Assembly (NCBI GenBank): GCA_018716385.1
Contig: DVJZ01000020.1
Location: forward strand, 1 to 50,452
Origin: Candidatus Enterenecus merdae
GTDB lineage: Bacteria > Bacillota > Clostridia > Oscillospirales > Oscillospiraceae
Direction: 5' to 3'
DNA length: 50,452 nt
The position numbers and the translations under genes are program-made. Positions 9,154 to 47,677 of the stretch are shown piece after piece (position 1 is the stretch's first letter; each line of letters opens with the position of its first letter). The notes under the pieces are model-generated. The model worked only from the letters and a program-made list of their open reading frames with translations. It ran no database searches and was not told the origin of the DNA.

Positions 9154-9236
9154 TCACACTTCAATTTGCTCTATCTGGAACGCCTCGATAACGTCCCCTT
9201 CCTTGATGTCCTGGTACTTCCCAATCGTAATGCCAC
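9154..9236 (-). pseudogene. Displaced second copy of the infB 3' tail
   Basis: Read on the minus strand, this encodes a near-exact copy of the last 26-27 residues of IF-2: it runs through [15 protein letters not shown] and ends EQIEV followed by TGA (9154-9156). It aligns at a fixed offset of 227 bp with the genuine tail, whose stop codon is at 9381-9383. Differences are mostly silent (ATA for ATG and GAA for GAG; TGA for TAA), with an apparent Glu to Gly change (TIGKYQ). There is no start codon or ribosome binding site, so it is not a gene by itself. Confidence 0.85.
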
Positions 9237-9380
9237 ACCTCCCCACAGGATGTGTTCCTGTGGGGCCCCTTTATTTTCTATGCTCGGGCGAAATCAATTC
9301 GCCCTGCGCAAATCTCCGCCTGCGGCTCCGATTTTGCGCGCCATCCGGCGCGCCCCGCTGCGCGGGGTGCACGCGCGGCA
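9237..9380. repeat. Hairpin-array element between the two infB tails
   Basis: This short segment is almost all inverted repeats: arms 9241-9250/9256-9265 (10 bp), 9286-9292/9298-9304 (7 bp, GGGCGAA...TTCGCCC), 9306-9314/9330-9339 (one bulge), 9336-9342/9347-9353 (7 bp) and 9353-9358/9362-9367 (6 bp). On the minus strand the order CGCGCAGCGG, CGGAGCC, AGGGCGAATT, TTCGCCC matches the element after truA. It looks like a small structured repeat family rather than ordinary spacer. Confidence 0.7.
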
Positions 9381-11732
9381 TTACACCTCAATCTGCTCCA
9401 TCTGGAACGCCTCGATAACGTCCCCTTCCTTGATGTCCTGGTACTTCTCAATCGTAATGCCGCACTCGTAGCCATGGGCCACTTCCCGCACGCTGTCCTT
9501 GAAGCGCTGCAGCGAGCTCATAAACCCCTCGTGGATCACGATGCCATCCCGCACCAGGCGGATCTGGGCGTTGCGCACCATCTTGCCGTCGGTGACATAG
9601 CAGCCGGCCACGATGCCCACCCCGGTGATCTTGTACACCTGACGCACCTCGGCCTGGCCCAGGGCCACCTCCCGGAACTTGGGGGAGAGCATCCCCTTCA
9701 TGGCCGCCTCGATCTCGTTGATGGCGTCGTAGATCACCCGGTACATACGCATATCCACCTTGTTGCGCCCGGCCGACTCCGCCGCGTTCTTGTCCGGGCG
9801 GACATTGAAGCCCACAATGATGGCGTTGGAGGTGGCCGCCAACATCACGTCCGACTCGTTGATGGCCCCAACCGCGCAGTGGATGACCCGCACCCGGACC
9901 TCCTCGTTGCTCAGTTTCTCCAGGCTGGCCCGCACCGCCTCTGCAGAGCCCTGCACGTCCGCCTTGACAATCAGGCTCAGCTCCTTCATCTCGCCGGCCT
10001 GGATCTGGCTGAACAGCTCATCCAGAGACACCTTGGTCTTCACCGACCCGGTGGTGGCGTTCTTCACCTCCGCCTTGCGCTGCTCTACCAGCTCCCGGGC
10101 CATGCGCTCGTCGGCCACGGCGTGGAAGTCGTCCCCCGCGCCGGGCACCTCGCCCATGCCCATGATTTCCACCGGAACAGAGGGACCCGCCTGGGTGACC
10201 TTGCGCCCGTTGTAGTCCATCATGGCTCGCACCCGGCCCACGGCGGTACCCGCGATGATGATGTCCCCCTGGTGCAGGGTACCGTTTTGCACCAGCAGGG
10301 TGGCCACCGGCCCACGGCTCTTGTCCAGCTTGGCCTCGATGACCGTCCCCCGGGCGGCCCGGTTGGGGTTGGCCTTTAGCTCCTGCACCTCGGCGGTGAG
10401 GGTGACCATCTCCAGCAGGTGCTCTACCCCCATACCCGTCTTGGCCGAGATGGGGCACAGGATGGTTTCCCCTCCCCACTCCTCGGCCACCAGCCCGTAT
10501 TCAGTCAGCTGCTGCTTAATCCGCTCAGGGTTGGCCTCGGGCTTATCCATCTTATTGATGGCCACGATGATGGGGATCTCAGCGGCCTTGGCGTGGTTGA
10601 TGGACTCCACCGTCTGGGGCATGATGCCGTCGTCGGCGGCCACCACCAGGATGGCGATGTCGGTGACCATGGCCCCCCGGGCCCGCATGGCGGTGAAGGC
10701 CTCGTGCCCCGGGGTGTCCAGGAAGGTGATGGGCTTGCCCCCCACCTCCACCTGATAGGCCCCGATGTGCTGGGTGATGCCACCGGCCTCCCCCGAGACC
10801 ACGTTGGCGTGGCGGATATAGTCCAGCAGGGAGGTCTTGCCGTGATCCACGTGGCCCATGACCACCACCACCGGAGCCCGTGGCTCCAGATCCTCGGGCT
10901 TATCCTCAGCGGTGTCGATCAGCCGCTGCTCGATGGTGACGATGACCTCCTTCTCCACCTTACAGCCCATCTCCATGGCAATCAGGGCAGCGGTGTCGTA
11001 GTCGATCAGGTCACCCAGGGAGGCCATCACCCCATTCTTCATCAGGCATTTGACCACCTCAGCCCCTGTCTTCTTCATCCGGCTGGCCAGCTCGCCCACC
11101 CCGATCTCGTCAGGGATCTTGACCGTGAGGGGAGTCTTCTTGGCAATCTCCAGCTGGAGCCGGCGCATCTTCTCCGCCTCTTCCTGCCGGCGCTTGTTGC
11201 CAAAGCCCTGCCCACGGCCCCGGCCGCCCCGGCTCTGGAACTTCTGCTTGCCGGTCTGCATCCGGTTCGCCTTGTCCGGGGCCAAGTCCTCCAGGCGCTG
11301 ATCGTACTTCTCCAGGTTCACCTGCCCGCCCTTGCGGGTGTCCACCACCTTCTTGGCCGGAGCGCGGCCCACGCTCCCCCCCTGACCGGCGGCCTGGGGC
11401 TGCTGGCTTTGAGCCGGCTGCGGCTTGGGCTGAACCTGGCCCTTGGCCACGGCCTGGCCGGCCGGGGCCTGCTCGGGCTGCTCCGCCTTGGAGGCCGGGG
11501 CGGGCTCGGGCTTTGGGGGCTCGTGATACACGTCGGCATAGATGGACTCGATGGACTCCACCTGGTTGCGTTGGGTCAGATGCTCAAAGATGATGCTCAG
11601 CTCCCGGTCGGTGAGCGCCTTGGTGGGCGACACCGTCTGCTTGGTGTGCTCGGCCAGAATACCGGTGATGGCTTTGGTCTGCATCCCAAAGTCCTTTGCC
11701 ACATCCCGGGCATTGTATTTCGCAAGGCTCAA
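9381..11732 (-). CDS. infB: Translation initiation factor IF-2
   Basis: IF-2 is the GTPase that delivers initiator tRNA to the 30S subunit and promotes subunit joining. The start is probably TTG 11732 ([16 protein letters not shown]), with AGGAGG 8 bases upstream; a GTG at 11741 would overlap that site. The protein has 783 residues. The order is an N-terminal helical domain, a Pro/Ala/Gln-rich linker, a basic [10 protein letters not shown] patch, a second IF2-N domain, then the G domain with [24 protein letters not shown] and NKMD, and the C1/C2 domains. The final codons are duplicated downstream. Confidence 0.97.
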
Positions 11733-11744
11733 ACAGGCCACCTC

Positions 11745-46667: not shown

Positions 46668-47423
46668 ATGGAACAGCGCAACATCGCCCTGCGCCTGAGC
46701 TACACAGGCACCGCCTATCACGGCTGGCAGGTGCAGAAAAACGCCCGCTCGGTGGCCGAGACCCTGGAGCAGGCCCTGGCCACGGTGGTGGGCCACCCGG
46801 TCAAGCTCACCGGGGCGGGCCGCACCGACGCTGGGGTGCACGCCCGGGTGTATGTGGCCAACTTCCGCACCAGCTCCGGCATCCCCGTGGACCGGCTGCC
46901 CCTGGCGGTGAACACCCGCCTGCCCGACGACATCGTGGTGTCCCGGGCCACGGTGGTGCCGGATGGGTTCAACGCCATCGGCTCCTGCCTGCGCAAGGAG
47001 TACACCTACCGCATCTACAACTCCCGCATCCGGGACCCCTTCTACGTCAACCGGGTGTGGTTCTACCCCCGGCCTCTGGACGAGGCGGTCCTGGCGGCGG
47101 CCGCCGCCCAGTTCGTGGGCACCCACGACTTTGCCGCCGTACGCTCGGTGGGTACCGAGACCCGAAGTACGGTACGCACCGTATACTACTTTGAGGTGGC
47201 GCGCCGGGAGCGGGTCATCGACCTTCGGGTGTGCGCCGACGGGTTTCTCTACAACATGGTCCGGGCCATGGTGGGCACCTGCGTCTACGCCGCCCAGGGC
47301 AAGCTGGACCCGGCGGACATCCCGGGCATCCTCTCCGCCCGCAACCGCACCCTGGCCGGCCCCACCGCCCCGCCGGATGGGCTATATATGACCAACTTAT
47401 GGTATGAGGAAGATGTATTATAA
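46668..47423 (+). CDS. truA: tRNA pseudouridine(38-40) synthase
   Basis: TruA modifies U38-U40 in the anticodon stem. The 251-residue protein has YTGTAYHGWQVQ, the catalytic Asp54 in GAGRTDAGVHA, LRKEYTYRIYN, FVGTHDFAAVRS and GFLYNMVRAMVG. The final codons (TNLWYEEDVL, then TAA) are strikingly AT-rich for this genome (TTA TGG TAT GAG GAA GAT GTA TTA). A GC-rich alternative copy of the same tail lies 149 bp downstream, so the present 3' end may be a replacement. Confidence 0.95.
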   Translation: MEQRNIALRLSYTGTAYHGWQVQKNARSVAETLEQALATVVGHPVKLTGAGRTDAGVHARVYVANFRTSSGIPVDRLPLAVNTRLPDDIVVSRATVVPDGFNAIGSCLRKEYTYRIYNSRIRDPFYVNRVWFYPRPLDEAVLAAAAAQFVGTHDFAAVRSVGTETRSTVRTVYYFEVARRERVIDLRVCADGFLYNMVRAMVGTCVYAAQGKLDPADIPGILSARNRTLAGPTAPPDGLYMTNLWYEEDVL

Positions 47424-47520
47424 GCTCAGACGGCGGGGCGGTAGGCCTGCCCCTGGCAGGCCCGCCGCGCAGCGGCGGAGCCAGGGCGGAATTCACTTCC
47501 GCCCGGCGATTTGCAATCCC
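47424..47520. repeat. Hairpin-array element between the two truA tails
   Basis: Three consecutive GC hairpins: arms 47444-47451/47455-47462 (8 bp), 47462-47468/47472-47478 (7 bp) and 47484-47491/47497-47504 (8 bp, GGGCGGAA...TTCCGCCC). The order CGCGCAGCGG, CGGAGCC, AGGGCGGAATT, CCGCCC matches the element next to infB. This is a member of the same small repeat family. Confidence 0.7.
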
Positions 47521-47571
47521 GCCGGATGGGCTATATATGACAATCTGTGGTGTGAAGCGGACGTGCTGTGA
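47521..47571 (+). pseudogene. Displaced second copy of the truA 3' tail
   Basis: The first 20 bases (47521-47540) are identical to 47372-47391 of truA. The sequence then encodes, after a one-base deletion, NLWCEADVL and a TGA stop. Codons here (CTG TGG TGT GAA GCG GAC GTG CTG) are GC-rich like the rest of truA, so this copy looks like the original 3' end. No ribosome binding site or start belongs to it. Confidence 0.8.
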
Positions 47572-47677
47572 GCCCGGCAGGAAAGGCGGAGCCAGGTCAA
47601 TCAAGCACTCCCATCCCTCAGGCGAGCCCTGACGCCAACCCCTTGCGGGTCAAACCCCACCAGGAAAGGAAGCCCCC

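Follow-up and report, generated by a model that had tools for sequence, protein, structure and literature searches.

The infB and truA genes of Candidatus Enterenecus merdae each carry a direct repeat of their own 3' end, the two copies being separated by a member of a family of structured non-coding elements of about 130 nt, which we call H. The order at such a locus is almost certainly gene body, X, first gene end, X', H, second gene end and native downstream DNA, where X is a target segment spanning the start of the duplicated end and X', 10–21 nt following the first copy, is the reverse complement of X. Comparison between loci and genomes shows this anatomy recurring at dozens of unlinked genes; some gut bacteria have dozens of these inserts, beside which the mostly housekeeping host genes remain intact. 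We tentatively read the spacers as non-autonomous elements which would have been inserted by target-primed copying of H RNA with a fold-back at the far junction. Rather more doubtfully, they may represent a new class of bacterial non-autonomous retroelements that insert into housekeeping genes without harm, in which a structured RNA of ~130 nt is copied from a nick within the gene, the fold-back writes 10–21 nt of reversed target and the gene end is rebuilt before the insert.

Anatomy of the infB and truA loci

In the 1.80 Mb draft genome (G000), which is 99% complete, the window, that is the whole stretch of 50,452 nt which we analysed, makes up contig C3. Its features at the two loci are as follows.

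9381–11741, minus strand: infB (TIGR00487)
9454–9463, minus: X of infB, GCGGCATTAC, in infB at the start of the duplicated end; reverse complement of X'
9383–9465, minus: first (in-gene) copy of the infB 3' end, an 83-nt direct repeat 94% identical to 9156–9238
9375–9384, minus: X' of infB, GTAATGCCGC, an inverted copy of X that overlaps the stop codon of infB; 10 nt exact, control maximum 8
9241–9374, minus: H at infB, an array of five hairpins forming the structured core; covariance model E 2.8e-28, this copy being in the training set
9286–9304, minus: hairpin 4 of the infB H, GGGCGAA-TTGAT-TTCGCCC, from the sequence
9241–9265, minus: hairpin 5 of the infB H, CCCCACAGGA...TCCTGTGGGG, directly preceding the second copy, from the sequence
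9156–9238, minus: second copy of the infB 3' end, running on into native downstream sequence; from the repeat, and from the empty site of genome G018, which joins the same downstream sequence
46668–47423, plus strand: truA (TIGR00071)
47364–47375, plus: X of truA, ACCGCCCCGCCG, in truA across the start of the duplicated end
47369–47441, plus: first (in-gene) copy of the truA 3' end with the first bases of the spacer, a 73-nt repeat, 72.6% identical, E 8e-8
47431–47442, plus: X' of truA, CGGCGGGGCGGT, inverted copy of X, 7 nt past the truA stop codon; 12 nt exact
47443–47517, plus: truA copy of H with hairpin 5 missing, from the sequence and the covariance model
47484–47504, plus: hairpin 4 of the truA H, GGGCGGAA-TTCAC-TTCCGCCC, from the sequence
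47518–47589, plus: second copy of the truA 3' end, with its stop codon at 47569–47571 and one base lost, from the sequence and the repeat

A first-pass annotation of the window had described both spacers and both tail duplications, and they are present where it placed them: the tail-duplication score is 72.0 at infB and 27.7 at truA, above the control maxima of 16.0 and 17.4 obtained when each left flank was paired with the right flanks of other elements. The ordered motifs which it had read in both spacers were likewise recovered on the respective strands. CGCGCAGCGG lies at 9364 (minus) and 47466 (plus), with one match per strand in the window; CGGAGCC, at 9330 (minus) and 47476 (plus), is not rare there, with 4 matches on the minus and 6 on the plus strand; AGGGCGAATT at 9305 (minus) and AGGGCGGAATT at 47483 (plus) have one match each, TTCGCCC at 9292 (minus) has 4 and CTTCCGCCC at 47496 (plus) has 2. 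Its assignment of the two spacers to one family stands, in that a single covariance model matches both, truA at E 8.6e-6, both copies being in the training set. The likeness is incomplete: the order of the motifs is shared, but in truA the final GGGGCCCC...GGGG hairpin is absent and the second tail is one base short. The second end of truA is more decayed (73%) than that of infB (94%), and the 12-nt match of the truA X' was reached by none of 300 random 40-mers of the locus. By eye, at truA 47390–47423 and at infB of genome G038 (L267), the first end appears to have changed, immediately ahead of the stop, to synonymous codons ending in A/T, and the second keeps GC-rich codons; over all elements the codon bias between the gene ends is mild (GC to AT 134, AT to GC 96).

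Distribution and structure of the H family

A first search of the genome with the infB and truA spacers gave further copies, several of them with a duplicated gene end (L002, L005, L008, L012, L023, L026). The covariance model was built from 11 copies chosen from loci with duplication and, for this reason, may favour that type; it gives 32 matches at E<=1 in the 1.8 Mb genome. Among the 30 of these with loci, 22 have hugging direct repeats of score 25 or more and 8 do not; the 22 include a tandem array of H itself (L078) and one locus that does not rise above its own control maximum (L083). The host genes named by NCBIfam are infB, truA, glmS, uvrB, serC, eno, lepA, recF and groES, and smc, typA and the lepA 5' sites were named by reading of the translations. 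At E<=1e-6 the model matches 36 of the 42 genomes of the genus, with none in G005, G026, G029, G030, G032 and G033, and at E<=1e-8 it matches 29 of 295 sampled genomes of the order. A pattern scan of named genomes for hairpin 4 found at least 118 stretches, and 80 titles among the pattern matches listed belong to Oscillospiraceae (Flavonifractor, Pseudoflavonifractor, Oscillibacter, Intestinimonas, Dysosmobacter), other Clostridia and unnamed bacteria. Viral contigs gave three matches, none with a gene-end repeat of score 25.

Several loci are unusual in other ways. A head-to-tail array of elements with a unit of about 141 nt and no obvious gene end occupies C11:124765–125048 of G000 (L009/L024/L025), and a copy of H at C25:19318 (L004, L080) lies beside an apparent tRNA-Leu gene and its terminator; a partial repeat resembling a tRNA is found further up, and the locus showed no duplication of a gene end. 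Near the lepA element an S10-Clostridia ribosomal protein leader (RF03136, 42.9 bits) was found at positions 2613–2686 of L067. A search downstream of 34 loci without duplication for a larger autonomous parent gave no clear large element; L102 and L128 have direct matches about 2 kb away, mainly within H, one L102 piece being outside it.

Over 102 copies of H, 98.2% of the cells pair, a figure favoured by the fitting of the alignment to the structure of the model, and the covariation is 0.620 compared with 0.180 for shuffled and 0.04–0.10 for slid alignments. Hairpin 4 is paired in 99.6% of cells, with changes on both sides, and hairpin 5 in 98.3%. Since G-U combinations far exceed A-C in the paired columns of these copies (90 and 10, respectively), the base-pair counts show the structure to be selected as RNA, on the strand of H. 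Rfam gave no family above the cut-off for the window.

Duplication of gene ends

The annotation had held that the structured spacer goes with duplicated gene ends and is not randomly placed, and the covariance-model search of the genome and its relatives bore this out. Hugging direct repeats of score 25 or more flank 105 of 133 elements from 28 genomes, as against 12 of 1064 control comparisons in which the left flank of one element was set against the right flank of another. Five of 138 loci had been dropped for having less than 150 nt of flank, and the genus sample comprised 80 regions among the covariance-model matches listed, besides 28 search loci. A scan with the sequence of hairpin 4 only, which is free of the training bias of the model, found repeats in 40 of 74 matches compared with 22 of 740 controls when 80 of its at least 118 loci, among the matches listed, were taken first; the 38 held-back pattern loci, again among the matches listed, gave 22 of 33 and 16 of 330, in agreement with the first count (11 of 85 and 9 of 42 matches with less than 300 nt were dropped). 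The repeats are 30–144 nt long, and the right copy starts between -3 and +4 nt from the end of H in 75 of the 105. G is enriched at positions -3, -2 and 0 of the junction (48, 45 and 49 of 75, with 16 of 91 elements left out for want of a clean junction).

The repeats are mostly gene 3' ends with the stop codon included: by an automatic rule the reading frame ends in the first copy in 83 of 91 elements, or in about 78 after five loci (L279, L356, L276, L083, L085) are discounted by eye. The proposal that the elements target 3' ends is supported by this majority but proved too narrow. In at least 8 of the 91 the gene is oriented the other way and the element lies at its 5' end (L282, L303, L279, L356, L276, L295, L311, L074), five of these loci having been read directly and three assigned by grouping and frames; in the five that were read, the first copy is the start region of the gene and the second is a repeat of that region. 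The proposal is further limited by one clean insertion without duplication and by related copies in another family, which are mostly without it. The 5' elements of lepA (L282, L303, L279, L356, L276) and typA (L295, L311), two translation GTPase genes which we named from their translations, occupy the homologous codons of the P-loop (DHGKS/T), and the H at the lepA 5' site in L303 is unrelated to the others (59–62%).

In that other family, f6 (G046, G068, G086, G128), 22 of 29 fetched copies of H have no duplication, which counts against the generality of gene-end duplication. The 7 duplicated f6 copies have no X' above score 9, and in the other 22 the best upstream inverted match scores 10. 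Within one genome f6 copies reach 84–90% identity, and their appearance is that of pieces of mosaic repeats which have closing hairpins (L391–L406, L411–L423). The gene-end type was found in 7 of 7 fetched copies in G200 and in 2 of 4 in G239, where a third copy has a 20-nt inverted match without duplication.

An inverted copy of the target

Of 91 duplicated elements, 81 have an X' (ungapped score of 10 or more), compared with 31 of 1820 controls; 14 of the 105 elements were left out of this count, 9 with alignments at the edge of the search and 5 with right copies 29–111 nt from H. Exact X' lengths extend up to 21 nt, and in most cases X covers the interval between about -5 and +8..+12 relative to the junction. 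At infB the stop codon is part of X': it is TAA where the target has ATT and TGA where it has ATC in four of the five species sharing the site, and the fifth, G035, has TAA with ATC. Could X' be a guide inherited together with H? Over the core from -3 to +8, in orthologous targets and with a register-fair count, X' agrees with its own X 63 times, with that of the orthologue 7 times and with neither 18 times; the core was chosen after the per-position table had been viewed, the ordered pairs are not independent and 28 of them have no register. The whole window from -8 to +12 gives a weaker result (own 106, other 56, neither 61). A register-fair count of the source of X' gave 20 for the left copy, 14 for the right and 14 for neither, and the counts of 130 against 2 (left/right) and 134 own against 7, which are biased by the choice of segment, were not used. 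In the closest pair of H copies from different targets of the genus sample (L276 and L267, 87%) the two X segments are unrelated, and similarity of H does not predict similarity of X. The cross-species agreement and the comparison of H copies show that X' follows the X of each species and does not come with a related H, and we rejected the inherited targeting guide on the second of these grounds; the most suitable reading of X' is accordingly that it was copied from the target. The X:X' helix is paired just outside in only 1 of 81 cases and has almost no G-U, in a choice of blocks which penalises both G-U and edge pairing; a sharp end and the near lack of G-U are as expected of a copy.

Age and history of the insertions

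Two copies of H which share a target have a mean identity of 79%, compared with 66% for random pairs, and many of the insertions are old, because the divergence of H follows that of the gene in several groups. The annotation had called the elements possibly mobile. The many unlinked targets and the empty sites in a sister genome speak for this, but no recent copying was seen, no two copies of H at different targets exceeding 87% identity among 91 genus elements. In the sister genome, G018, which we compared over 800 kb and the search loci, sites are empty at infB, L069 and L074, all insertions with duplication, and at L082, a clean insertion; other sites are shared. The L069 element has a second copy that agrees with the native end, and a first copy which was cut short and takes its stop codon from X'. 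At the empty sites that we read, the alignments show the second gene end to be the copy that joins native downstream DNA. The flank of the lepA gene is 91–97% identical and its H only 63–71% between G000, the G001/G002/G015 set and G016, so that either the same site was hit again or H was replaced.

A tentative mechanism and its alternatives

We hypothesize that insertion would begin with the nicking of a strand within the gene and close to its end, some 5 nt into X and often after GGN. The 3' end of the nicked strand would pair with the GGGG end of H, and H would be copied into DNA from this primer. At the far end of H the copy would fold back and copy 10–21 nt of its own primer, giving X', and the new end would be joined to the other arm 30–144 nt further on, as a result of which the end of the gene would be duplicated. 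Only where the first copy leaves the gene intact would an insertion be retained, which would account for the preference for ends of housekeeping genes. Later the two gene ends could recombine and so homogenise, form tandem units or remove the element cleanly. Three features suggest in which direction copying would run: the right end of H is almost constant, G is enriched at the junction (-3, -2, 0) and X' lies at the other end. An RNA template is our best guess because H is conserved at the RNA level. Several observations speak against target-primed copying. Reverse transcriptase (PF00078), present in 25 of the 42 genus genomes, had no match in G000, G016, G020 and G041, which bear 19, 31, 19 and 6 H matches at E<=1e-6, and there is the lack of recent copying. 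At 30–144 nt the duplications are long by the standards of target-primed insertion. Unrelated H at one and the same site in different species, as at lepA, is not predicted by random priming, and coding sequence is retained in both copies to a degree not expected if the second were free to change. Between the two gene ends there are, over 83 elements, 250 synonymous codon changes and 97 others; the frame is kept in 78 of the 83 and the stop in 55 of 60, the 23 without an aligned stop codon being left out, and between species the second end shows 404 synonymous and 149 other changes. Recombination with element-free alleles is a possible explanation of this conservation.

Is an enzyme of this kind needed at all? 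In a replication slip of the host, for which template switching of the MMBIR kind is the model, a nascent strand would stall in the gene, jump to an H DNA template, fold back to give X' and re-anneal behind itself, H spreading without an enzyme of its own. This would need no reverse transcriptase, in keeping with G000, and would account for the fold-back X', the duplication, the GG microhomology at the junction and the one clean insertion without duplication (L082). An accidental DNA template, however, need not be conserved as a strand-specific RNA, as H is by its G-U excess (90 to 10), and a defined end of the template is indicated by how little the right end of H varies (75 of 105 within -3 to +4 nt); we regard this explanation as rather unlikely.

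The pair G006 and G007, which have an identical first end, 99% identical H and different second ends, looks like the outcome of exchange with an element-free allele. It also fits the idea that a unit of first gene end, X' and H spreads by homologous recombination or as a circle, the two ends being alleles of different lineages. Many end pairs differ by synonymous changes alone (16 to 0 other at L336, 12 to 0 at L267), and tandem units exist (smc and groES of G018, infB of G035). An imported X' should mismatch the X of the recipient, yet X' follows its own X in the core (63 against 7), and the arrival of H at a new gene would be left unexplained, which makes such import an improbable account of the family.

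The coding conservation of the second end, with its stop kept in 55 of 60, could also be expected of a small intron spliced in cis, in which X' would pair with X across the 5' splice site, H would serve as a scaffold and splicing would join the gene body to the second end, the first being a fail-safe. The junction falls about 5 nt into X, which resembles the arrangement of an exon–guide helix, and X' tracks X. However, the coding pattern recurs in the reversed copies at 5' ends although H is antisense there (13 synonymous changes to 0 other at L303; L356 has 4 to 4), X' is as good beside a broken second end (17, 16, 14, 12, 11 and 9 in six cases) as beside an intact one (median 12 in 54), X:X' has almost no G-U, and Rfam scans of 37 loci and the window gave no intron family; we consider splicing very improbable. 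That unrelated GC-rich terminators coincide with separate tail duplications, an idea to which the GC-rich hairpins of H and their position after stop codons might lead, can be dismissed, being refuted by the duplication and X' controls and by the fit of one covariance model with heavy covariation to 102 copies.

Relation to known elements

Target-primed copying of H has its nearest parallel in SINE-like non-LTR retroelements, with which H shares RNA-level structure, a defined right end, variable flanking repeats and microhomology on the priming side. Conservation at the RNA level, direct target repeats (105/133 against 12/1064) and the empty sites in G018 are all features of a target-primed retroelement that we found; a partner reverse transcriptase (PF00078), in contrast, had no match in G000, and to our knowledge neither X' nor a gene-end bias has been described for SINE-like retroelements. 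A diversity-generating retroelement was rejected, as G000 has no reverse transcriptase match and the changes between copies are not adenine-specific; synonymous changes between the gene ends are mainly transitions, in both directions.

REP, BIME and REPIN sequences, which are moved by RAYT (Y1) transposases, are short hairpin repeats found in tens of copies between genes and often after them. H resembles them in its short hairpins, its tens of copies and its position after genes, and we know of no long gene-end duplication or target-derived inverted segment in these systems. The transposase required by RAYT-moved REP sequences (Y1_Tnp, PF01797) is present in 16 of the 42 genus genomes and had no match in G000, G018, G017 and G020. 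In G016 a RAYT-like Y1 ORF lies directly downstream of the uvrB element (L384, C12:2500–8500). A RAYT was rejected as the mover, this neighbourhood being treated as chance because G000 has no Y1 match. MITEs, BOX, RUP and Correia repeats are small, non-coding and present in many copies, and they are moved in trans; MITE-type repeats have terminal inverted repeats and short target duplications of fixed length. H is also small, non-coding and present in many copies, but it is flanked by direct gene-end repeats of 30–144 nt together with X', and its inverted pair X/X' varies with the target.

In tyrosine-integrase elements which rebuild the 3' end of a gene, the duplicated 3' end flanks the insert, as it does in H; H has many unrelated targets, and as only about 130 nt lie between the copies there is no room for an integrase. 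Group I and II introns are similar in having a guide-like helix across the junction and in sparing the gene on insertion. They differ in that H has no Rfam match, is about 130 nt long and occurs in reversed copies at 5' ends; the Rfam covariance models found no group I or II ribozyme core in the 37 loci and the window. One of the 37 loci aligns end to end with sbcD RNA (RF01757), which has a similar order of helices, at 33.4 bits, below the curated gathering cut-off of 40, and this likeness is probably due to chance; PMC2864571 lists sbcD RNA for Burkholderiales. We could not match the gene-end H elements to any known kind of element. Our literature search, which had most subscription journals outside its reach, brought up nothing that we recognised as similar to them.

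If our reading is true, these elements insert into important genes and repair the gene in the same event. X' would then be a readable record of the target, which makes insertions traceable across species, and the dozens of copies of H in some Oscillospiraceae provide many natural replicates. It would also point to a novel enzyme, or to an unsuspected use of a known one, that primes the copying of a small RNA at a chromosomal nick, a chemistry which would be of wide interest.
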